IMG/VR virus record: IMGVR_UViG_3300045741_000200
Span: 1-42,969 of that record
From: a virus
Reading direction: 5' to 3' (one strand)
DNA: 42,969 nt
Shown: in pieces, positions 4,873 to 36,881 of the stretch
How positions within the stretch are numbered: position 1 is the stretch's first letter
Layout of the letters: the number at the start of each line of letters is the position of its first letter
Position numbers and translations under genes: made by a program
The notes under the pieces: model-generated
The model's input: only the letters and a program-made list of their open reading frames with translations
Database searches by the model: none
What the model was told of the DNA's origin: nothing

Positions 4873-6102
4873 ATGCCGTTCCCAATGCTTGAGACCAAGC
4901 GTGGTGAACTCGACCACGTGCGCAAGGAAATTGCGGACATCTTCGCTGAGGCTGGCCCGGATCTTGACTTGGGCAAGGTCAAGTCTGTGCAGGGCAACAC
5001 GTCTGAGATTGCGGCGCACATTCGTGCACTGAACGAAAAGGCCACGGACCTTGGTGTCGAGGTAGACAACCTCACTGCCGTTGCCAACGCTGCCGAAAAG
5101 GCACGCGGCACAACGGGTCCCGAGGGTGAGAGTGGCGCGGAGCAGGATGAGCGCAAGGCCAAGCGCGAGGTTGAGGCCAAGAGTGTGGGCGAGTTGTTCA
5201 CTGACTCTGTGGCGTACAAGTCTCGCACCGGTGGTCAGGGACCCGTTGCCACGCTTGACGTTGAACTCAAGACACTGATGACCACCTCTGCGGGTTGGGC
5301 GCCGCAGAACATCCGCACTGGCACTGTCGTTGACTATGCCACGCGACCCATTCAGGTCATCGACATCATCCCCGGTACGACTACCTCGCAGGCTGCGGTG
5401 GTCTACATGGAGGAAACCACGTTTACGAACTCCGCTGCGGAAACCGCTGAGGCTGGCACCTACCCTGAGTCTGCCCTTGCACTGACTGAGCGCAGTAGCC
5501 CGGTGCGCAAGATCGCCACATTCCTGCCGATGACTGATGAGCAGTTGGAAGACATCCCGCAGGCTCAGGGGTATGTCAACAACCGTCTGCCGTTCATGGT
5601 GCGGCAGCGGCTTGATGGTCAGATCCTTGTGGGCAACGGCACCCCGCCGAACCTCACCGGTATCCTCAACGTGGCAGGGATTCAGACGCAGGCCAAGGGT
5701 GCCGACCCCACGCCCGATGCGGTGTATAAGGCACTTGTGTTGGTGCGTGTCACGGGTCGCGCATTCCCCAACGCGTTCGTGACTCACCCGCTTGACTGGC
5801 AGGATGTGCGACTGTTGCGCACTGCGGACGGTATCTATATCTGGGGTAACCCTAGCGATGCCGGACCGGAGCGTATCTGGGGACTCAACGTGGTGCAGTC
5901 CGATGCGATCACGCAGAACACTGGCCTTGTGGGTGACTTCGCGAACTACTGTGAACTTGCCGTGAAGCGTGGCATTGAGGTGCAGGTCAGCAACTCGCAC
6001 AGCACCTATTTCGTTGAGGGCAAGCAGGCCGTGCGCGCGGACATGCGTACCGCGTTCGTGGTGTACCGCCCGGCCGCATTCTGCACCGTCACGGGTATCT
6101 GA
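4873..6102 (+). CDS. Major capsid protein (HK97 fold) with delta domain
   Basis: 409 aa. Residues 1 to about 75 form a helical, charged scaffolding (delta) domain with heptad-like spacing, then a linker GPEGESGAEQDERKAK, then the capsid fold. Typical signs are TTSQAAVVYMEETTFTN (E-loop/N-arm side), RKIATFLPMTDEQLED, VRQRLDGQILVGNG and the C-terminal VVYRPAAFCTVTG. The protease encoded just before would remove the delta domain. TGAGAGGTAGAGGG precedes the ATG. It is the most abundant protein expected in the virion. Confidence 0.93.
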   Translation: MPFPMLETKRGELDHVRKEIADIFAEAGPDLDLGKVKSVQGNTSEIAAHIRALNEKATDLGVEVDNLTAVANAAEKARGTTGPEGESGAEQDERKAKREVEAKSVGELFTDSVAYKSRTGGQGPVATLDVELKTLMTTSAGWAPQNIRTGTVVDYATRPIQVIDIIPGTTTSQAAVVYMEETTFTNSAAETAEAGTYPESALALTERSSPVRKIATFLPMTDEQLEDIPQAQGYVNNRLPFMVRQRLDGQILVGNGTPPNLTGILNVAGIQTQAKGADPTPDAVYKALVLVRVTGRAFPNAFVTHPLDWQDVRLLRTADGIYIWGNPSDAGPERIWGLNVVQSDAITQNTGLVGDFANYCELAVKRGIEVQVSNSHSTYFVEGKQAVRADMRTAFVVYRPAAFCTVTGI

Positions 6103-7978: not shown

Positions 7979-9700
7979 GTGGCTGTATACAGCGCACAGC
8001 AAGCAACAGCCGCTGTACACCCACCCATCACTGTCAAGACTGCGAGTGGTGCGCAAGCATTCATCCGTAGTGCCTGCTACGGCAAGTCATCCACGACTGC
8101 CAGCGTCATTGAGCGTGTGTTCCTTGCACGCTATAACTCTGATGGTGGCACCCCAACCGCGCGCACCGAGAAATACAACACGCGGTCACGCACCAACGCC
8201 ATCGGCAACCAATGGTCTATCGGCCCGACCATCAACGGCAACCCGCTTGTCTACATCGATGCCGGTGACAAGCCTGTCCTCAATCAGCGGTGGCGACCGC
8301 CGCGACCGTTGGCAACACCGAGCATCATCGATGTCGAGGAAATTGGCATCGATGCGAGTAGTGCAGCGAACACCTCAACCTCCCATCACATCACGTGGGC
8401 GGACGCACCACCGGATGAGGAATCCCGCAAGGTAACCCGTCGGCCGATCCGTCGCGGACTGTTTCACCACTACGCGCACCATGTCGTGATCCGGGGTGGC
8501 CTCAGTGCCAACCCGCGTGCGAACATGCGGCGCAATTACTGCCTGTTCACCCCCAATGTCGTTGGGGCACAAGGGCAGTCGCTTGCGCTCAGCACACCTA
8601 CCGGTAACCTGACCGGTGACGTTTCGCAGGCCATCACAGCGGGCAGCACCGTCACCGGCCGGATGGACGCAACTTGCGCGGTCACCTCCACCATCACAGC
8701 CGGTGCAGCGGTCACGGCCGTTGTCGCGCGCACCGGTGCAGTCACCTCGACCATCAGCGCAGCGGCAACGGTCACCGGTGTTGACGGCAAGGTCGGCGCA
8801 GTCACATCCGCTATCACTGATGCCGCAACGGTTTCCGGTGTTGCCGGGGCAGTAGGCGCAGCCACCTCGACCATCAGCGCTGCGGCAACGACCACCGGTG
8901 TTGCCGGTGCGGTCGGTGCAGTCACATCCGCTATCACTGATGATGCAACGGTTTCCGGCACCGTCGCCGGTGGTGCGCCCACCGGTGATGTCAGTGCTGC
9001 CGTCACTGCCGCTGCATCCGTCACCGGTCTAGTTGCGGCAACCGGTGCGGTCACTGGCACCACAACCGCAACCGCAACCGTGATTGGTGTGGTTGCCCGC
9101 ACCGGGGTGGCAACCACCGCCATCACCCATGCCTCAACAGCGGCAGGCATCGTCGGTGATGTGGGTGCGGTGTCTGCATCCACATCAGCGAATGTGGTTG
9201 CGGTTGCGGTTGTGGCCCGAACCGGTGCCGTCACTGCATCGGTGACAGCATCGGCCACCGTCACCGGCACCACGGTTGCCGGTGTGATCGGCAGTGTCAC
9301 TGCCACCGTCACGGCAACGGCAACGATCACCGGTGTTGTTGCACGGGTCAGTGATGTCACTGCCACCATCACAGCGGGCAGCACCGTCGTTGCACGGGTT
9401 GCCCTCACTGCCGGTGTGTCGGCAACCGTGTCGGCAAGTCTGGCGAGTACCGCGCGGGTCGGCATGTTCGGCACGGTGCTCAGCCTCATCACTGCCGACG
9501 CGGACGTGATTGCACCACCCCGGCACCGGGGGGTTGCGGTCGGCATCGGCCGGGCCGGAACCGGCGCAGCGGCCGGACCCGCTGTAGGCCGTTCTGTGGG
9601 CACGGCGCAGGGGGGTGCCCCTACTGCTACCGGCCCGGCAGGGAACGGGCCGCAGACAGGCACGCGTGACCGCTCAGGACCATTAGCGCAGGGAGGGTGA
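7979..9700 (+). CDS. Fibre-like protein with 20-residue tandem repeats
   Basis: 573 aa. Residues 1 to about 200 form a globular N-terminal domain. From about residue 212 to 507 there are some fourteen 20-residue units of the form GAVTSTISAAATVTGV, rich in Ala, Thr, Val and Gly, as expected of an elongated beta-helical or stacked shaft. The tail (about 515-573) is Gly/Pro/Arg-rich and disordered-looking. GTG 7979 follows GAGGAG at good spacing. The gene sits between capsid and connector, so a head fibre or whisker is a reasonable guess, yet a tail role is possible. Repeats are near-identical at DNA level in places, inviting length changes by recombination. Confidence 0.7.
   Translation: MAVYSAQQATAAVHPPITVKTASGAQAFIRSACYGKSSTTASVIERVFLARYNSDGGTPTARTEKYNTRSRTNAIGNQWSIGPTINGNPLVYIDAGDKPVLNQRWRPPRPLATPSIIDVEEIGIDASSAANTSTSHHITWADAPPDEESRKVTRRPIRRGLFHHYAHHVVIRGGLSANPRANMRRNYCLFTPNVVGAQGQSLALSTPTGNLTGDVSQAITAGSTVTGRMDATCAVTSTITAGAAVTAVVARTGAVTSTISAAATVTGVDGKVGAVTSAITDAATVSGVAGAVGAATSTISAAATTTGVAGAVGAVTSAITDDATVSGTVAGGAPTGDVSAAVTAAASVTGLVAATGAVTGTTTATATVIGVVARTGVATTAITHASTAAGIVGDVGAVSASTSANVVAVAVVARTGAVTASVTASATVTGTTVAGVIGSVTATVTATATITGVVARVSDVTATITAGSTVVARVALTAGVSATVSASLASTARVGMFGTVLSLITADADVIAPPRHRGVAVGIGRAGTGAAAGPAVGRSVGTAQGGAPTATGPAGNGPQTGTRDRSGPLAQGG
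8614..9490 (+). repeat. 60-bp tandem repeat array inside the fibre-like gene
   Basis: The coding DNA has a period of exactly 60 bp over about 14 units. Some are close copies: 8801-8837 recurs at 8921-8957 (period 120), and GTCACCTCGACCATCAGCGC at 8741-8760 recurs nearly unchanged at 8861-8880. An A-B-A-B arrangement of two 60-bp types is visible between 8730 and 8960. Confidence 0.85.
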
Positions 9701-19848: not shown

Positions 19849-20160
19849 ATGTCGCTTGCATCGTCCGCAGACCTAGCCACGCACAACGGTTTCCGGTCAC
19901 GCGTGCGCGTAGCCATGGTGACTGCTGCACTTAACGTGGCAGCGGAAGCGCCATCGGGCAACCCCACCAACGATCAGAAACGCAGCATCCTCGCAACCCG
20001 CGTGCTCGGTCCCGATCAGCCAACGTTCCTCGACTCATTCGCGTGGATCGTTGGTGCCAACGTGTCTATCTCGTCCACCGGTCTAGATACCCCGGATGGT
20101 GACATTCAATTCGCGGTCAACAGTGCATGGAATGCAGCGGCCGGTGTGACCGCAGGCTGA
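19849..20160 (+). CDS. Hypothetical protein before lysin
   Basis: 103 aa: helical N-terminal half (FRSRVRVAMVTAALNVAAEAPSGN), second half DSFAWIVGANVSISS. Short proteins of this type lie between tail-tip and lysin genes in many actinophages; function unknown. No Shine-Dalgarno is evident; it follows the previous stop by four bases, so it may be coupled. Confidence 0.65.
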   Translation: MSLASSADLATHNGFRSRVRVAMVTAALNVAAEAPSGNPTNDQKRSILATRVLGPDQPTFLDSFAWIVGANVSISSTGLDTPDGDIQFAVNSAWNAAAGVTAG

Positions 20161-20171
20161 GAGGCAAGGCC

Positions 20172-20948
20172 ATGGAACTCAAGTACAGCAAGGCATTATG
20201 GCGACCGTTGGGTGCGCAGACTGAACCGAGCATCGGGGTACCTCGCGTGCTCATCGTGCACACCATGGTTGGCAACCTTGCTGGCACCGATGCGATGTTC
20301 AAGCGGGATGGCTACATCGGTACTGAATCCACGTTCGGTATCGGGGGACCATGGGAAACACCGAGTCTTGATGGTGTTGTCTACCAATGGCAGGAACTCG
20401 ACCACTGCGCCGATGCGCAGTGGGATGGCAACGCATACGCCACAAGCATTGAGACTGCGGACGGTGGCAACCCCAACCACCCATGGACAGACAAGCAACT
20501 CGATGCGTTGGTGCACCTCGCAGTGTGGTGGTGTCAGCAGACGCATCACCCTGCCAGACTTGTCACATCACCGAGCGACACCGGCATTGGCTACCATGCA
20601 CAGTTTCCCGCATGGAACAAGTCTGCGCACACGTGCCCCGGTGCCGTCCGCATCTCACAGTTACGTGAGGCAGTCATCCCGCGCGCTGCCGGAATCCTCA
20701 AGGGTGGCAACGGTGGCAACGGCTCTGCGGTATTCACCTTGCGCCGCTACCTCAAGTTGACCAACCCCATGATGCACGGCAGTGACGTGGTGGAGTGTCA
20801 GCGCAAGGTGCGCTGTACCGATGACGGTTGGTTCGGCCCGGCAACACGTTCGCATGTCGTTGCGTGGCAACGGGATCACAACCTCATTCCTGATGGGGTG
20901 GTCGGTCCGCTCACTTGCAAGTCGTTCGGTTGGCACTGGGCCGGTTGA
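20172..20948 (+). CDS. lysA: Endolysin: N-acetylmuramoyl-L-alanine amidase plus PG-binding domain
   Basis: 258 aa from ATG 20172, preceded by CTGAGAGGCAAGG. Residues about 20-170 form an amidase-2 domain: Zn-ligand candidates His 30 (VLIVHT), His 142 (YHAQFPAWNK) and/or His 153, and Cys 155 (HTCPG). A Gly/Asn linker (about 178-184) leads to a peptidoglycan-binding domain (about 190-255: MHGSDVVECQRKVRCTDDGWFGPAT... GVVGPLTCKSF). It cuts the cell wall at the end of infection. An upstream start at 20127 overlaps the gene before and has no ribosome site. Stop overlaps the next ATG. Confidence 0.92.
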   Translation: MELKYSKALWRPLGAQTEPSIGVPRVLIVHTMVGNLAGTDAMFKRDGYIGTESTFGIGGPWETPSLDGVVYQWQELDHCADAQWDGNAYATSIETADGGNPNHPWTDKQLDALVHLAVWWCQQTHHPARLVTSPSDTGIGYHAQFPAWNKSAHTCPGAVRISQLREAVIPRAAGILKGGNGGNGSAVFTLRRYLKLTNPMMHGSDVVECQRKVRCTDDGWFGPATRSHVVAWQRDHNLIPDGVVGPLTCKSFGWHWAG

Positions 20949-21723: not shown

Positions 21724-21963
21724 CTACAGCATCAGCCGTGCAACCTCATCAGGGTCGGCACCCTTGATGAGTTCATGGAATGAGATGCCTAGCGCTGCAC
21801 AGAGTTTCGGCAACTCATCCACCTTGACTGCGCGTGCTGCATTCTCGACCCCTGAGAGTGCAGTGCGACTCACTCCCACCATGTCCGCTAGTGCGGCTTG
21901 GGTCCAACCATGACGCGCACGCGCTGCACGCACGTTCATCGCGATGGCTTGACCCAATGACAT
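21724..21963 (-). CDS. XRE-family HTH regulator (repressor candidate)
   Basis: 79 aa from the ATG at 21963, chosen because GGAGGTGA lies 8 bases upstream. Residues about 8-65 make a Cro/C1-type HTH: NVRAARARHGWTQAALADMVGVSRTALSGVENAARAVKVDELPKLCAALGIS. It is almost only a DNA-binding domain, without a protease-type C-terminal part, so it would not respond to RecA cleavage like lambda CI. It may be the immunity repressor or an auxiliary regulator. It is transcribed opposite to the lysis genes and faces the unlinked region 21964-22321. A longer reading from 22047 lacks a ribosome site. Confidence 0.8.
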   Translation of the reverse strand: MSLGQAIAMNVRAARARHGWTQAALADMVGVSRTALSGVENAARAVKVDELPKLCAALGISFHELIKGADPDEVARLML

Positions 21964-22321
21964 GGCTGTATCACCTCCTACCATCGGTGCCCCTTTCCTT
22001 ACGGCGGTTGCGTTCTGGCGTCCGATGCGCGGTGCAGCATCAGACACCGTTCCCGGGGTGTTGCTGTGCGCACCTTAGAGGTAACTACCGGTGGATGTGC
22101 ACATTTCGTTCAGACGCAACGATCAAGCGATAAGACACTCTCAAGGTTGGAAGGTAAAGCGGACACGCTGCAGGAAAATCGAACATCGGTTATCGTGGTG
22201 TCTCGGCCCGGCCGGGTCGGCGGTTGCGTTCTTTCCGGGGTGTATCCCCGTCCCGGCCGGGTCCCTGCCCATGTGGGGTAGAGTCGATCCATTCCAGTGG
22301 CGTGACACACCGGAGGTTGTG
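21964..22321. other. Intergenic regulatory region with CCCGGCCGGG hairpins
   Basis: 358 bp between divergent genes, without a convincing ORF. CCCGGCCGGG occurs at 22207-22216 and 22252-22261; the two can pair with each other, enclosing the smaller hairpin CGGGG-TGTAT-CCCCG (22236-22250). ATCGAACATCGGTTATCG lies at 22179-22196; the 9-mer ATCGAACAT recurs beside the promoter candidate at 33175. Operators and an attenuator for the rightward gene 22322 are plausible but unproven. Confidence 0.5.
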
Positions 22322-23552: not shown

Positions 23553-24274
23553 TGTGCCTTTCCGCTTGCAGCAGGCTTGCGCGGTCGGCCACCGGGATGA
23601 CGTGGCAACGGTTGGTTGCGCTCCACCACCACGTTGAGCATGGGTGCATCGGGATCAACGGCAGGATGCGCCATCAGGTCAGCGTAATCCCCAACCTTGA
23701 TGCGCGCATGAGGCCAGGATGCCCACTCAGGAACGCGTGCAGCGATGATGCCGTGCGGGTCAACACCTTGGGTCAGGCACAACCAGAACATGCGCGTGAG
23801 GGTGTTATATTGCTGACCGCTGATGTCAGGGTGCAACTTGCTGTGCGAGGCAAGGCCAGTAACAGACGCGCATTCCTTGCCACACATCGGACATGTCTTG
23901 CCAATCATCGTCTCAGTGTCGTTGATGCCGTGCACTGTCTTGAGATGGTTGAGCACACCGGCAGTGCTATGTGCGAACCATTCGGGACAGGCCAGGCAGT
24001 GCACGCGGTTACGGTCGCTAGGGTCAATGGGTGCGCGACCCACGCCCGATGAACTCGCAGCCTTGCCCGGTGGCTTGGTGATGGGCCGTCCGAACTCATC
24101 CAACAACGTCAACGCGTTGAGCAATGACAGGCCGTGGTCAACGCAGACATCAACCTCACGCTCAACCGTGCCCGCACTGTTGGTGATGGTGACGCGCCAC
24201 GTCTCACCCCGTACCTTGGTGCCGTCCTTGAGGTGCGGATCGCACCATGACTCGATCACTATTTCTTGCACCAT
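23549..24274 (-). CDS. Two-finger C2H2 protein with AT-hook-like tail
   Basis: 241 aa. Residues 1 to about 66 resemble the beta-hairpin/helix layout of Lsr2-type dimer domains (ETWRVTITNSAGTVEREVDVCVDHGLSLLNAL). Two zinc fingers follow: C93-x2-C96...H110-x4-H115 and C128-x2-C131-x12-H144-x3-H148, the second a canonical C2H2 finger. Residues 228-234 GGRPRKP look like an AT-hook. So it is most likely a DNA-binding, perhaps xenogeneic-silencing or counter-silencing, protein. Eukaryote-style C2H2 fingers are rare in bacteria but seen in actinophages. ATG 24274 is preceded by the element CTGAGAGAGCGAGCG. Confidence 0.78.
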   Translation of the reverse strand: MVQEIVIESWCDPHLKDGTKVRGETWRVTITNSAGTVEREVDVCVDHGLSLLNALTLLDEFGRPITKPPGKAASSSGVGRAPIDPSDRNRVHCLACPEWFAHSTAGVLNHLKTVHGINDTETMIGKTCPMCGKECASVTGLASHSKLHPDISGQQYNTLTRMFWLCLTQGVDPHGIIAARVPEWASWPHARIKVGDYADLMAHPAVDPDAPMLNVVVERNQPLPRHPGGRPRKPAASGKAQ

Positions 24275-24292
24275 CGTTCGCTCGCTCTCTCA
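24275..24292 (-). promoter_or_regulatory. Start-associated element before C2H2 gene
   Basis: Reverse strand CTGAGAGAGCGAGCGAACG directly before ATG 24274. GAGAG and GCGAG replace a classical AGGAGG site. It matches the element before at least nine other genes. Confidence 0.75.
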
Positions 24293-24296
24293 GGTT

Positions 24297-24740
24297 TCAG
24301 CCCGCGCGCTTACCGCGTCGGGGGGTTGCGGTTGCTGCGTTGATTCTTTCCTCGGCGACAGTCACGTGACGCATGTTCACCATGGCGAGTGCCGGACCAC
24401 CGGTCAGCCGACCAATACCCTTGGCGAGATAGCCACGCGGATAGGTCACCTGCGGTCGGTCAATGCGCTCAAGGCCATAGCGCGATTGGGTGTATTGGGT
24501 GACGCGTCGCGCACCACACGCGCACTGCTCCGTGACTGTGATGATCTTGTCTCGATGCACGGTGTAGGGATCGAATCGGTGCCGACGCGCACGGCACTCG
24601 ATCATTTCCAGCGGCAGCGATTCAAGGAACTCCCGAGCATCACCCTCATTGGCCCATAGGTCGGTGTGCCGCTGTGCCTGCTGCTCACCTTGAATGCTGA
24701 GCGGCTTGGTTCCTTCTGGCGTTCGCTTACGTGGGGTCAT
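24297..24740 (-). CDS. Hypothetical protein with CxCG zinc site
   Basis: 147 aa from ATG 24740 (GTGTGAG upstream; the longer start at 24803 has none). Contains IECRARRHRFDPYTVHRD, then EQCACGARRVTQY, and YPRGYLAKGIGRLTGGPA, a chain of motifs I recall from a common actinobacterial phage family of unknown function with a C...H...CxCG metal site. It is the first gene of the leftward operon and starts beneath the promoter candidate at 24788-24816. Confidence 0.7.
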   Translation of the reverse strand: MTPRKRTPEGTKPLSIQGEQQAQRHTDLWANEGDAREFLESLPLEMIECRARRHRFDPYTVHRDKIITVTEQCACGARRVTQYTQSRYGLERIDRPQVTYPRGYLAKGIGRLTGGPALAMVNMRHVTVAEERINAATATPRRGKRAG

Positions 24741-24787
24741 CTCACACTCATTCCGGGGTGTGTAGTCGTGACGTTGCAGAGGGCAGC

Positions 24788-24816
24788 GTAATAGATCCGG
24801 CACGGTGCGTTGGTAA
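24788..24816 (-). promoter_or_regulatory. Leftward sigma70-like promoter candidate
   Basis: On the reverse strand TTACCA (24816-24811), 17-base spacer, TATTAC (24793-24788). Position about 50 bp before the ATG of the gene at 24740 fits. Only two-box likeness supports it. Confidence 0.5.
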
Positions 24817-24905
24817 TTCGGACCGAACGTGCCCTAGCCTGTCTTGCGGCGCGGTTAGGTGAATCCGCTCAACAGGGATTCGCGAATCACGGGAACACGT
24901 CAGAG

Positions 24906-24993
24906 GGTGGCCGCGCCACTGCCCCGGTCGGACCGCTCATCCTCGCCAGGGAGTGCCCAACCGGCCGGGGCAGCCACCCCGGCAGCACGCTGC
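24906..24993. other. Strongly structured intergenic DNA
   Basis: CTGCCCCGGTCGG (24919-24931) pairs with CCGGCCGGGGCAG (24961-24973), extended by GGTGGC/GCCACC outside; a second short hairpin GGCAG-CACG-CTGCC follows at 24980-24993. It lies between a leftward operon and attP, a stretch without genes from 24741 to 25147, so it could isolate transcription of the two sides. No T-run. Confidence 0.5.
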
Positions 24994-25030
24994 CAGCACG
25001 CGTGATCTTGCATCGTCGCAGGTCAGGGCA

Positions 25031-25080
25031 GTGTGGTTGTCAGCGCGTGTCGAGAACTAGACACCCTCGCTCAACCACAC
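25031..25080. other. attP: Candidate attP of the serine integrase
   Basis: 50-bp dyad: outer arms GTGTGGTTG / CAACCACAC (9 bp), 7-base gaps, inner arms GTGTC / GACAC (5 bp), 8-base centre GAGAACTA whose middle dinucleotide is AA (25055-25056). Length, imperfect dyad with unpaired gaps, asymmetric central dinucleotide and location 68 bp before the integrase ATG are all as known for attP sites of large serine recombinases. The host attB is not in the window, so this is unproven. Confidence 0.7.
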
Positions 25081-25102
25081 CAATTGAGGTACCCTTGAGG
25101 TG

Positions 25103-25120
25103 TTGGCACGCGCGTGCCAA
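25103..25120. promoter_or_regulatory. Perfect 18-bp palindrome, operator candidate
   Basis: TTGGCACGCGCGTGCCAA is identical to its reverse complement. It lies between attP and the integrase start, 28 bp before ATG 25148, in the expected leader. A dimeric regulator controlling integrase transcription, or the phage repressor, could bind here. Confidence 0.65.
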
Positions 25121-25147
25121 CAGCCTGAGAGAGCAAGGGTGAGAACG

Positions 25148-26689
25148 ATGGGAACCAAGACTAAGCAAGCGCGATTGGTCGGAATGTATCGCACCAACCG
25201 CAAGCCTTATCCGGCGAACTATCAACCGACATGCATTGGCCTTTACGCCCGTATGTCGCATGACACCATGGATGCCGAGGGGGTTGAGCAACAACTTGCC
25301 GACCTTGAGGACCTTGCAGCGGAACTCTACCCCGGAATCCCGACCCGTCACTATACCGATAACGATGAGGGTGCATCGGCACTCAGTGCCAACAATGGTG
25401 AGCGTGACGAATACGCGCGGATGATCGGTGACGCCAATGACGGAATCATTGATGCGTTGCTCGCACCGAACATGGATCGATGGACGCGCGTACTGCGGGA
25501 TGTCATCGACTCTATTGAGTGGATGGTTTACCTCAACATCCCGTTCACCACCCTTGAGGGTGACACCACACGTACTCACGCAGGCATCAAGGCCATGAAA
25601 CAGAAAGTGCTAGATGCCGAGTATGAGGTGCAGCGCATTTCGCAGCGGATGAAAGCGCGTAACCGTCGGCGCAGGATGGCCGGTAGGTTCGGCAGCGTGC
25701 ACCGTCGTTATGGGTGGGCATATGACAGCAACAAGGATGGCAAGCAATTCTGCTACTTCACCGAGCACGATGAGCATGAGGCTGAGATTGTGCGTGGCCT
25801 CTATGAGCGTGCAGCCAAGGGAATGCCACCGGCTGAGTTGCTGCGGTGGGTGCGGTCGGTTGAGCCTGTCCGCAACCTCAAGGGCAAGCCTGTCCAGTGG
25901 ATGAGCAACACTGTCAACGAAATGTTGCGCTGCCCCACGTATGCCGGTGGCATGTCCTATGAGGGCAAGCCGCTGCGTAACGATGATGGTTCGCTGCAAC
26001 TGTCCACCAACATCAACCCCATTGTCAGTGTCGATGAATGGGAAACGGTGCAGCGCGTCATCAGTGAGCGGCCGGTGGTGAGTGTGCACAACGGTGAACG
26101 TCGGCACGTGCTCGCAGGCTTGGTTATCTGTTCCTTGTGTGGTGCCAAGATGGCCGCAGAGGTCTATAACCGCAATGGCAAGCGTCGTGCCCGGTGGGCA
26201 TGCACCAAGGCACGTGGTGGATGCGGGCACATGATGCGTGATTATCGCGCTGTGCACAACATGGTCATGGAATTCGTTGAGGGTCAGATCAAGTCTGGCA
26301 GCCCGGTGCCGGTGACCCTGCCTGCCGAGACTGACACCGTGTCCGGCCGGATCGCTGCCCTTGAGGGCAAGATTGCAGCGTTGGACGCACTGCGGGGCGG
26401 CGCATTCAGCGACGCTGAGATTGCCATGATGATGGAAACACCCCGTGCAGAGTTGCACCGGTTGCAGTCTCAGCGCGAGACAGCAGCACGTAAGGTCAAG
26501 GCTGCCAGTATGGCCGATGCAGACAGCATGCTCAAGGTGCTGCATGACGAGACACCACAAGCATTCTGGCAGCGGCGCAGCATCATCACCGATGAGGTTG
26601 ACCGCATCGTCATCAAGCCTGCACGCCGATCCCGGGGTGTTGATCTGACGTCGATTGAGGTTGTCCCCAAGCGCAGGATCACAGCCTGA
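25148..26689 (+). CDS. int: Large serine integrase
   Basis: 513 aa. Catalytic domain: TCIGLYARMSHDTMDAEGVEQQLADLEDL with the nucleophile Ser 37 and Arg 35; later YTDNDEGASALSANNGERDEYARMI and LLAPNMDRWTRVL match the serine recombinase core. The recombinase domain is at about 180-290 (RFGSVHRRYGWAYD... GLYERAAKGMPPAELLRWV... YAGGM). A zinc-ribbon region with CSLCGAKMAAE and CTKARGGCGHMM follows at about 334-366, then a coiled-coil (about 395-455). ATG 25148 was preferred over GTG 25100 because CTGAGAGAGCAAGGGTG precedes it; the earlier codon lies inside the leader palindrome. It inserts and (with a directionality factor) excises the genome. Confidence 0.95.
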   Translation: MGTKTKQARLVGMYRTNRKPYPANYQPTCIGLYARMSHDTMDAEGVEQQLADLEDLAAELYPGIPTRHYTDNDEGASALSANNGERDEYARMIGDANDGIIDALLAPNMDRWTRVLRDVIDSIEWMVYLNIPFTTLEGDTTRTHAGIKAMKQKVLDAEYEVQRISQRMKARNRRRRMAGRFGSVHRRYGWAYDSNKDGKQFCYFTEHDEHEAEIVRGLYERAAKGMPPAELLRWVRSVEPVRNLKGKPVQWMSNTVNEMLRCPTYAGGMSYEGKPLRNDDGSLQLSTNINPIVSVDEWETVQRVISERPVVSVHNGERRHVLAGLVICSLCGAKMAAEVYNRNGKRRARWACTKARGGCGHMMRDYRAVHNMVMEFVEGQIKSGSPVPVTLPAETDTVSGRIAALEGKIAALDALRGGAFSDAEIAMMMETPRAELHRLQSQRETAARKVKAASMADADSMLKVLHDETPQAFWQRRSIITDEVDRIVIKPARRSRGVDLTSIEVVPKRRITA

Positions 26690-26717
26690 CTTGCATGACA
26701 CGCACCATGCGATGCAT

Positions 26718-26753
26718 GATGTGCCCCGTACCCCGCAGGGTGCGGGGCACATC
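26718..26753 (+). terminator. Hairpin after integrase
   Basis: 16-bp stem GATGTGCCCCGTACCC / GGGTGCGGGGCACATC (one G-U pair) with the loop CGCA. No T-run; the next gene's start element follows at once, so read-through or attenuation is possible. Confidence 0.7.
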
Positions 26754-26770
26754 GATTGAGAGAGCGAGTG
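26754..26770 (+). promoter_or_regulatory. Start-associated element
   Basis: TTGAGAGAGCGAGTGAG, 6 bases before ATG 26777; same motif as before other early genes. Confidence 0.7.
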
Positions 26771-26776
26771 AGTCAC

Positions 26777-27133
26777 ATGGCAGACGTCGAGACCATCAAG
26801 CCCACGTTCGGCAAGGGTCGCAGCATCCCCAAGCGCAAGGGTGGTGCGCAGGCCATCCCCAACCCGTTCCTCGACATGGTGGACGAGATGCGCGCCGAGG
26901 TGGACGCGGACGGGTTCACCACGGACGGCAACGTCCGAACCGCTGAGTTCGAGGGTGTCGCGGACCGCAAGGACACCAACGTCAACCGCGCGTGGCGCCA
27001 GTTCAGCAAGGCTGCCGAGGTGGCAGGGTTCAAGCCTGGTCGTCAGTGGGATGTGGAGAACAAGGGCACAGCGGCCAAGCCCAAGGTTGTGGGCGTCATG
27101 ACTTTCTGGTTCGCCGGAAAGCGTGAGGGGTAA
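26777..27133 (+). CDS. Small basic protein downstream of integrase
   Basis: 118 aa, opening MADVETIKPTFGKGRSIPKRKGGAQAIPNPFLDMVDEMRAEV, Lys-rich, and ending PKVVGVMTFWFAGKREG. The PNPFLDMV segment and a central VNRAWRQFSKAAEVAG helix recall an actinophage family of unknown function; a nucleic-acid-binding role is possible. Being the first gene after integrase, it is one candidate for the recombination directionality factor, on position alone. Codons are more G/C-rich than those of neighbours. Confidence 0.7.
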   Translation: MADVETIKPTFGKGRSIPKRKGGAQAIPNPFLDMVDEMRAEVDADGFTTDGNVRTAEFEGVADRKDTNVNRAWRQFSKAAEVAGFKPGRQWDVENKGTAAKPKVVGVMTFWFAGKREG

Positions 27134-27166
27134 GCCCTCAATTGGTTCGACTTTCGGACCAAGCCT

Positions 27167-27208
27167 AGAAACCCCCCGGGATGCTCAGGCATCATCCGGG
27201 GGGTTTCT
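27167..27208 (+). terminator. Rho-independent terminator
   Basis: Perfect 13-bp stem AGAAACCCCCCGG / CCGGGGGGTTTCT with an inner continuation GATGC/GCATC, so nearly 18 bp; TTTCT end. It closes the 26777 gene. A weaker hairpin TTGGTTCG/CGGACCAA lies just before (27142-27163). Confidence 0.8.
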
Positions 27209-27214
27209 GCATGT

Positions 27215-27262
27215 CCACTACCTGAGCCACTACCTGAGCCACTACCTGAGCCACTACCTGAG
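27215..27262 (+). repeat. Four 12-bp direct repeats fused to a start element
   Basis: Four exact copies of CCACTACCTGAG at 27215, 27227, 27239 and 27251. The last copy runs straight into CTGAGAGAGCGTG, the start-associated element of the gene at 27272. Non-coding on the plus strand. Confidence 0.9.
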
Positions 27263-27271
27263 AGAGCGTGA

Positions 27272-27574
27272 ATGGCTGTGCCGTGCTCGCATCGGTGGGT
27301 GTTGACCGGTGCCGATGAGTTATTGGGTCAAGTGGTGTTGTCGATTCGGTGCGACTATTGCGAGTCTGAATCGGTACAGTCATTAGATGAACTCATCACC
27401 AATGGCGTAGGTGTGTTCATGCCATCACGTGATTGGTACGCCATCGATGATGAGGGCAACCCTCGGGCACCGTGGGCCGTGCCCGGTGTGCTGCGTCGGC
27501 TGTACGGGTCGCAGGATGTGCCACCCTCGGCCACCCCGGACGGACCGGACGGAAATGCCCCGGAACAGCCCTAG
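27272..27574 (+). CDS. Small zinc-binding protein
   Basis: 100 aa: PCSHRWVLTGADELLGQVVLSIRCDYCES forms a C-x-H ... C-x2-C zinc site near the N-terminus (residues about 5-30); the remainder is polar and ends with a Pro/Gly-rich tail. ATG 27272 follows AGAGAGCGTGA. It sits behind the four 12-bp repeats, which may regulate it. Unknown function. Confidence 0.65.
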   Translation: MAVPCSHRWVLTGADELLGQVVLSIRCDYCESESVQSLDELITNGVGVFMPSRDWYAIDDEGNPRAPWAVPGVLRRLYGSQDVPPSATPDGPDGNAPEQP

Positions 27575-28898: not shown

Positions 28899-28955
28899 AC
28901 ACAACACAAGGCACCCCGACCGCTCTGCATGCGGCCGGGGTGCCTTGTGTTGTGT
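28899..28955. terminator. Bidirectional terminator with 20-bp perfect stem
   Basis: Stem ACACAACACAAGGCACCCCG pairs perfectly with 28936-28955; loop of 17 bases. It divides the rightward short-gene block from the leftward operon (28965-32422). The longest perfect stem seen in the window. Confidence 0.9.
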
Positions 28956-36178: not shown

Positions 36179-36565
36179 ATGACTCACGTTATGGATGTGC
36201 CTGATTCAATCTGGGAGTGGGGTCAGAGGCATTTCAACACAAGCAATCCCGCACCACACTTGCGCAACATGGTCATACAGAGCATGGTGCAACTACTGAC
36301 GGTCCCTGCCGATGAGGTTACTACTGAGATTGATGAAGTCATCGCCGAACCTGTTGCTATGCGGACGTTCGAGCAACGACGCAACGCATTAGGTATCACG
36401 TTCGTGCCGGTCGACCCTGACAGGCAAGCGTCATACGTGTGGGGTATGGAGATGTTCGGTGGCGAGGAAGAACTACTGACATTCCTTGAGGAAAAGGCTG
36501 CCGATGGGATCAACAACCCCATGTTGTTCCTGATTGCGTTGTGGGCCAAGCGGTCCCGAGGTTGA
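36179..36565 (+). CDS. Hypothetical protein
   Basis: 128 aa from ATG 36179, with the element CTGAGAGAGGGTGAGCAGG before it. Helical N-terminal DNA-binding-like part (WEWGQRHFNTSNPAPHLRNMVIQSMVQLLT), acidic second half (GGEEELLTFLEEKAADGI). Not recognised. Confidence 0.62.
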   Translation: MTHVMDVPDSIWEWGQRHFNTSNPAPHLRNMVIQSMVQLLTVPADEVTTEIDEVIAEPVAMRTFEQRRNALGITFVPVDPDRQASYVWGMEMFGGEEELLTFLEEKAADGINNPMLFLIALWAKRSRG

Positions 36566-36566
36566 C

Positions 36567-36881
36567 ATGCCACAACCTAAGCCTGACAGGCATGTTGACC
36601 CTATCGGCACCGATGCGATGTTCGACGTTGAGCCGTTACGCCATGCCAAGCAACGCACCAAGTCTGTACCGAGCGCAGCGCAAGGCAATTGCCCGCGATG
36701 CCTGCGAGGCAAGACAGGTCTGATGCCGCAAGGTCGGCACCTTGTCTGGCGTCAACACAACTACACCACATGGTCAGGGGCGCGGATGCCTTGCCCCGCA
36801 AGCGGTATCGCAGTGTGTGCACTGCCTGAGGTTAACCCGCTAGATGGACTGTTCACAGTGAGGTGCATGCACGATGACTAG
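36567..36881 (+). CDS. Zinc-ribbon-like protein
   Basis: 104 aa from ATG 36567, two bases after the previous gene's stop. Contains CPRCLRGKTGLMPQGRHLVWRQHNYTTWSGARMPCPASGIAVC, a Cys-pair plus later Cys/His that suggests a zinc ribbon. One of many such small proteins in this operon. Confidence 0.6.
   Translation: MPQPKPDRHVDPIGTDAMFDVEPLRHAKQRTKSVPSAAQGNCPRCLRGKTGLMPQGRHLVWRQHNYTTWSGARMPCPASGIAVCALPEVNPLDGLFTVRCMHDD

Follow-up and report, generated by a model that had tools for sequence, protein, structure and literature searches.

Organisation of the integrase locus

The DNA analysed here (the window) is the whole 42,969-nucleotide stretch of the viral record IMGVR_UViG_3300045741_000200. 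It contains a divergent gap of 344 bases (24804-25147), bordered on the left by leftward ORFs and on the right by an integrase gene, int. The features of this region, with the evidence used for each, are as follows.

21724-22047, minus strand: HTH_3 regulator of the Cro/C1 type, close to the integration module and a candidate immunity repressor (domain match)
24297-24803, minus strand: leftward ORF matching phrog_4480 (no assigned function), probable start ATG at 24740 (phrog match)
25031-25080, no strand: candidate attP, 50 bp, 24+AA+24 imperfect dyad (sequence, repeat finder, dyad scans)
25031-25039, plus strand: left outer arm GTGTGGTTG, covering positions 24-16 of the half-site and proposed as the zinc-domain motif (sequence; geometry from PMC3783163)
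25047-25051, plus strand: left inner arm GTGTC at positions 8-4, where the recombinase domain makes contact in the model (sequence)
25055-25056, no strand: central AA, proposed crossover dinucleotide (centre of symmetry)
25060-25064, minus strand: right inner arm GACAC (sequence)
25072-25080, minus strand: right outer arm CAACCACAC, complementary to the left arm at every position (sequence)
25101-25122, no strand: perfect 22-bp palindrome TGTTGGCACGCGCGTGCCAACA between the candidate attP and int (repeat finder, palindrome and fold scans)
25125-25133, plus strand: leader word CTGAGAGAG ahead of int, with further copies ahead of other genes in the window (word scan)
25148-26689, plus strand: int, large serine recombinase of 513 aa (domains, phrog_95, conserved residues, fold search)

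Between the phrog_4480 ORF and the HTH_3 regulator lies a further leftward protein with a weak zinc-finger match. The palindrome at 25101-25122 is the longest in the window by six bases (the next being 16) and is unique there even when three mismatches are allowed; no viral contig of the collection searched contains an exact copy of its 18-bp core. The palindrome is perhaps a control site or operator of int, or a hairpin in the 5' leader. The gap also holds a GC-rich inverted repeat at 24919-24973, with 13-base arms that are 92% complementary. The leader words CTGAGAGAG, GAGAGAGC and GAGAGCGAG occur at 25125, 26758, 27258 and 27920 on the plus strand, at 24281, 29423, 31348 and 32436 on the minus strand, and elsewhere. 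Several stand just before gene starts on both strands, as an extended sequence of the ribosome-binding type, and this recurrence before gene starts supports the ATG at 25148 as the start of int.

int encodes a distant large serine recombinase

A serine integrase had been proposed beside the dyad in the initial annotation, and domain, residue and fold analyses bear this out. The int product carries the Resolvase (1.5e-14), Recombinase (2.4e-12) and zinc-ribbon (5.2e-07) Pfam domains, all above cut-off and all within a single protein of 513 aa, a length inside the range of about 400-650 aa that serves as a size filter for large serine recombinases in PMC10083194. It matches the phrog_95 integrase family at 1e-63 and is the sole phrog_95 match in the window. 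Residues S37, R35, R111, R114, C328 and C331 are invariant in all three integrase alignments, and C352 and C359 are conserved in two of the three; we take S37, R35, R111 and R114 to be the catalytic serine and arginines, and C328, C331, C352 and C359 to be the zinc cysteines.

A Foldseek search with the int model returned 26 PDB chains at E<=0.001, of which 25 are large serine integrases and one is a transposon serine recombinase; 4kis (the LI integrase on an attP half-site), Bxb1 and phiC31 are among them. The model itself is weak, with a mean pLDDT of 65.9, TM values by query length of 0.17-0.35 and unreliable domain packing. It places coiled-coil helices at residues 395-413 and 422-453, after the zinc ribbon, as in the fold of solved integrases. 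When the PDB was searched by sequence only, int had no significant match (best E 0.11). The int gene product is thus a large serine recombinase, and a distant one.

A 50-bp two-block dyad upstream of int

The letters and coordinates of the 50-bp candidate, 25031-25080, are exactly those reported initially, and the layout 9-7-5-8-5-7-9, with symmetrical outer arms, GTGTC/GACAC and a central AA, could be read back from the sequence. In order, the site consists of GTGTGGTTG, 7 nt, GTGTC, GAG-AA-CTA, GACAC, 7 nt and CAACCACAC. The repeat finder returned arms at 25031-25054 and 25057-25080 that are 75% complementary and 2 nt apart; in the 24+2+24 dyad around AA, 18/24 positions are complementary. 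Counted outward from AA, the matching positions are 1, 2, 4-8, 10, 12 and 16-24, and the mismatched ones are 3, 9, 11 and 13-15, so that the outer block is symmetric at 9/9 positions (a symmetry of sequence only) and the middle block at 2/7. The claim that the site lies directly upstream of int holds as to the side, but "directly" is loose, as 67 bases separate its end from the ATG at 25148, with the 22-bp perfect palindrome between them; its centre lies 93 bases before int.

The score of 18/24 is the highest among even dyads with a 2-nt centre in the window (followed by 17 and 16). Under a dinucleotide Markov model, 18 was reached by one whole window among 30 simulated and by 0.03% of 20,000 simulated 350-base stretches. 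In real DNA from 80 related viral loci, 14 of 979,510 positions scored at least 18, hairpins included, which by our scaling amounts to about 0.6 per window length and about 0.005 per 344-base gap. Because real phage DNA is richer in hairpins, a score of 18/24 alone is unremarkable genome-wide, yet it is notable within one 344-base gap. The joint pattern of 9/9 outer (16-24) and 5/5 inner (4-8) matches, which was defined after the site had been seen, occurred at none of the 979,510 positions of related viral DNA and at none of 2,577,000 simulated positions; the outer block alone occurred at 20 simulated positions.

The word made up of the arm plus the inner block is found in the window only as the two halves of the candidate site, even when two mismatches are allowed. 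The arm word GTGTGGTTG alone has five exact copies in the window, two of them within the candidate; with up to one mismatch there are 38 copies against 23.9 expected, a number equalled in none of 100 shuffles.

A dyad of this strength in a divergent gap might also be a regulatory element, either the operator of a phage repressor or an RNA hairpin or terminator. As RNA, either strand of the site folds stably, at -25.1 kcal/mol (z -4.9) and -24.2 kcal/mol (z -3.7), the HTH_3 regulator is encoded in the same region, and the 22-bp palindrome adjoins the site. Such folding would, however, be expected of an attP with a strong dyad; neither strand has a T-run after the dyad, and a terminator scan of 24400-27400 called none. 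The paired arm word has no copy elsewhere in the window, and two symmetric blocks, at 16-24 and 4-8, in a 50-bp dyad with a 2-nt centre are more than a simple operator would be expected to have. A regulatory role in place of attachment is therefore improbable.

Comparison with known attP sites

Serine-integrase attP sites are described as about 45-50 bp long with inverted repeats in PMC5311408, which also gives the attP of Streptomyces phage Joe as an experimentally confirmed site of 50 bp or less with a central GG. The 50-bp imperfect inverted repeat around a 2-bp centre that precedes int agrees with this description. In the A118/LI attP structure (PMC3783163; LI integrase, PDB 4kis), position 0 is the central dinucleotide, and the 9-bp motif recognised by the zinc domain occupies positions 16-24 in a site of 24+2+24 form. 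The perfect outer arms of the candidate coincide exactly with these zinc-motif positions of the A118 family; unlike its AA, the A118/LI crossover holds a G according to the same source.

Known sites were measured by the same dyad scan as the candidate. Joe (KX815338, attP annotated at 36556-36605) gave 17/24, centred on the annotated crossover GG; phiBT1 gave 16/24, centred on GT inside its annotated attP; phiC31 gave 15/24 on TT and Bxb1 16/24 on GT. The dinucleotides named for phiC31, Bxb1 and phiBT1 are their crossover dinucleotides. For Joe, phiBT1 and phiC31 the known site was the best dyad within 200 bases before int, and for Bxb1 it was the second-best over the same distance, behind a hairpin followed by T's.

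The Joe attP resembles the candidate in being a 50-bp imperfect dyad with an exactly central dinucleotide just before a serine integrase gene, and differs in its core GG, its distance of 18 bases from int and its other arm sequences. In both cases a leftward gene borders the other side of the site, which in Joe encodes the directionality factor. Because Joe's factor occupies that place, the ORF at 24297-24803 was considered for the same role; this assignment is unproven, and tblastn of the ORF in phages gave no match at E<=0.01. The Bxb1 attP shares with the candidate an outer symmetric block (17-23) and an inner one (5-9) with weak symmetry between them, but has a core GT and a centre 26 bases before the int start, and its integrase is 17% identical.

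In A118, the best dyad of a 6,001-base stretch (19/24, CC/GG core) lies 20 bases past the int stop (L015:3949-3998) and holds TTTAGTTTC exactly at positions 24-16, one letter off the printed LI motif; before int, the best dyad scored 13/24. In our reading, the dyad past the stop fits the published geometry and is a candidate for the A118 attP. It has 8/9 outer matches, but its middle block is symmetric at 6/7 positions against 2/7 in the candidate upstream of int, and it is placed after int rather than before. TP901-1 gave at most 14/24, both before int and throughout the 3,000 bases scanned.

The scan was extended to 16 other regions upstream of integrase genes, comprising 14 hand-picked among 88 phage records and two viral loci (L018 and L019); the integrase had led to four viral loci in all, of which L017 has no sequence before int and L003 was left out of the scan. 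Six of the 16 had a dyad at simulated P<0.05, so that the dyad method is not universal, and part of these significant dyads may be terminators, such as that of Reindeer, which ends in T's. The candidate's 18 equals the highest score reached in 18 other upstream regions. Three of the 16 regions, from the Microbacterium phages Caron, UtzChips and SuMoo, agree in the place of the dyad, its centre lying 22 bases ahead of int; they score 16, 18 and 14, respectively. The integrases of Streptomyces phages Urza, phiScoe54 and Speedwell, about 25% identical over 91-95% of the query, are among the best full-length matches, and their best upstream dyads are centred 76-96 bases before int, compared with 93 here; these dyads have a core CA, have no arm sequence in common with the candidate and are weak in Urza (P 0.37) and Speedwell (P 0.07).

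As a separate observation, the CA-centred dyads of Urza (L008), phiScoe54 (L012) and Speedwell (L106) look alike by eye and are candidate attP sites of these phages. Around the integrase starts of seven other phages, the arm word was no more frequent than expected by chance, and an apparent conservation of arm words (GTGT words, seen by eye) near the nearest Streptomyces integrases was dropped as not above chance.

A different stretch near int might be the true attP. The palindrome at 25101-25122 and the pair 24919-24931/24961-24973 are both strong inverted repeats of the same 344-base gap, and the A118 case suggests that an attP may also follow the int stop; just past the int of the window, the best dyads listed score 15 (26722 and 26735). 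The palindrome, however, is 22 bp long and pairs without a break across its self-complementary CG centre; measured as a 24+2+24 dyad it scores 15, with 4/9 outer matches. The pair has no 2-bp centre because its span of 55 bases is odd (our reading of its parity). It is accordingly very unlikely that the attachment site lies at one of these places.

The structure expected of an attP and a place before int, both put forward initially, are therefore upheld by length, a 2-nt centre, block positions and nearness that match known attP sites. We infer that 25031-25080 is very probably the attP of this phage. As such it is a typical and well-situated member of a familiar class of sites, and it leaves what is known about serine integrases unchanged.

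Relatives of the integrase and of the phage

Genome contigs were searched with the integrase only, and in them no attL, attR, attB or lysogen was found; the scan returned three weak Oscillospiraceae loci. The full arm pattern was present in no viral contig. Integrase scans of viral contigs gave one locus with the whole protein, three with a three-member alignment and none with a fragment; integrase relatives can be missed in such contig scans because these need a matching peptide word. No integrase relative above 29% identity was seen among the 40 of 88 phage records listed, all 88 falling below 60%, or among the matches listed from viral contigs, genome contigs and plasmids, and the best full-length phage matches, among those listed, were about 25% identical. 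A plasmid search with the integrase returned six records (best identity 24%), and blastn of 24000-27200 against phages gave no close relative.

Terminase and primase scans of viral contigs confirmed no relative. The capsid scan of the same collection confirmed 249 relatives, of which 80, 52-70% identical, were kept. Among the 45 longer records of these 80, phrog_95 had three matches at E<=0.001; in two of them a stop codon is flagged within the matched region, and one is partial. The genome is a mosaic, as the capsid gene (4873-6099) and the terminase and endolysin genes (832-2301 and 20127-20945) differ in their nearest phages: the best-listed phage relatives of the capsid (45-52%) are phages of Sinorhizobium and Microcystis together with one other phage, and those of the terminase and endolysin infect Mycobacterium and Streptomyces.

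Predicted integration reaction and host site

What the window itself shows is the site with its geometry and, next to it, a gene for a large serine recombinase; binding, cleavage at AA, integration and the nature of the host site are taken from the family. On this basis, two integrase subunits would bind the two 24-bp half-sites of attP, the zinc-ribbon domain of each contacting the outer 9-bp arm (16-24) and its recombinase domain the inner region. The attP-bound subunits would synapse with two subunits on the host attB, the integrase would cut around the central AA, the subunits would rotate and the strands would be rejoined, leaving the phage genome inserted between attL and attR. Since the complement of AA is a different dinucleotide, the central AA can dictate a single orientation of integration.

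In the A118/LI model (PMC3783163), attB keeps a similar recombinase-domain region (positions 1-12) and carries the zinc-domain motif 5 bp further inward than attP. By analogy, the attB of the present phage should be about 10 bp shorter than its attP, with the inner region kept and the zinc motif 5 bp inward. One conceivable attB half-site under this model would, going inward, have GTGTGGTTG at positions 11-19 and GTGTC at 4-8. The initial prediction that attB shares the central AA and little else would be too pessimistic under this model and needs changing.

Integration at AA would part int and the palindrome from the leftward genes, joining host DNA to both. We suggest as an unlikely further consequence that this switches transcription of int and of the immunity genes, with the palindrome as the control site.

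The locus provides an integrase-attP pair that is ready for trial and names the exact bases to seek in lysogens. Because the integrase has no close relative in the collections searched, the pair is a possible new and independent integration tool. More generally, an attP can be located from symmetry combined with the half-site geometry in the literature, even without knowledge of the host.

Other repeats in the window

A dispersed motif, TTGC-N3-GCAA, is found for example at 96, 137, 866, 4498, 13192 and 42319, and in several places it is preceded by AACCC; there are 14 copies against 1.4 expected, the largest number in 40 simulations being 4. It could be operator-like or coding. An exact tandem repeat of the 12-mer CCACTACCTGAG occupies 27215-27262, just before an ORF at 27272, and runs into the leader word. 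Repeats with a 60-base period extend over 8676-9372, inside an ORF (7979-9700) with no phrog match at E<=0.001. When centres of 0-8 nt are allowed, inverted repeats stronger than the 50-bp dyad occur at about 28924 and 41628. A strong hairpin at 28900-28954, with 24-base arms complementary at 23/24 positions and a 7-nt loop, stands between apparently converging ORFs and is perhaps a two-way terminator.
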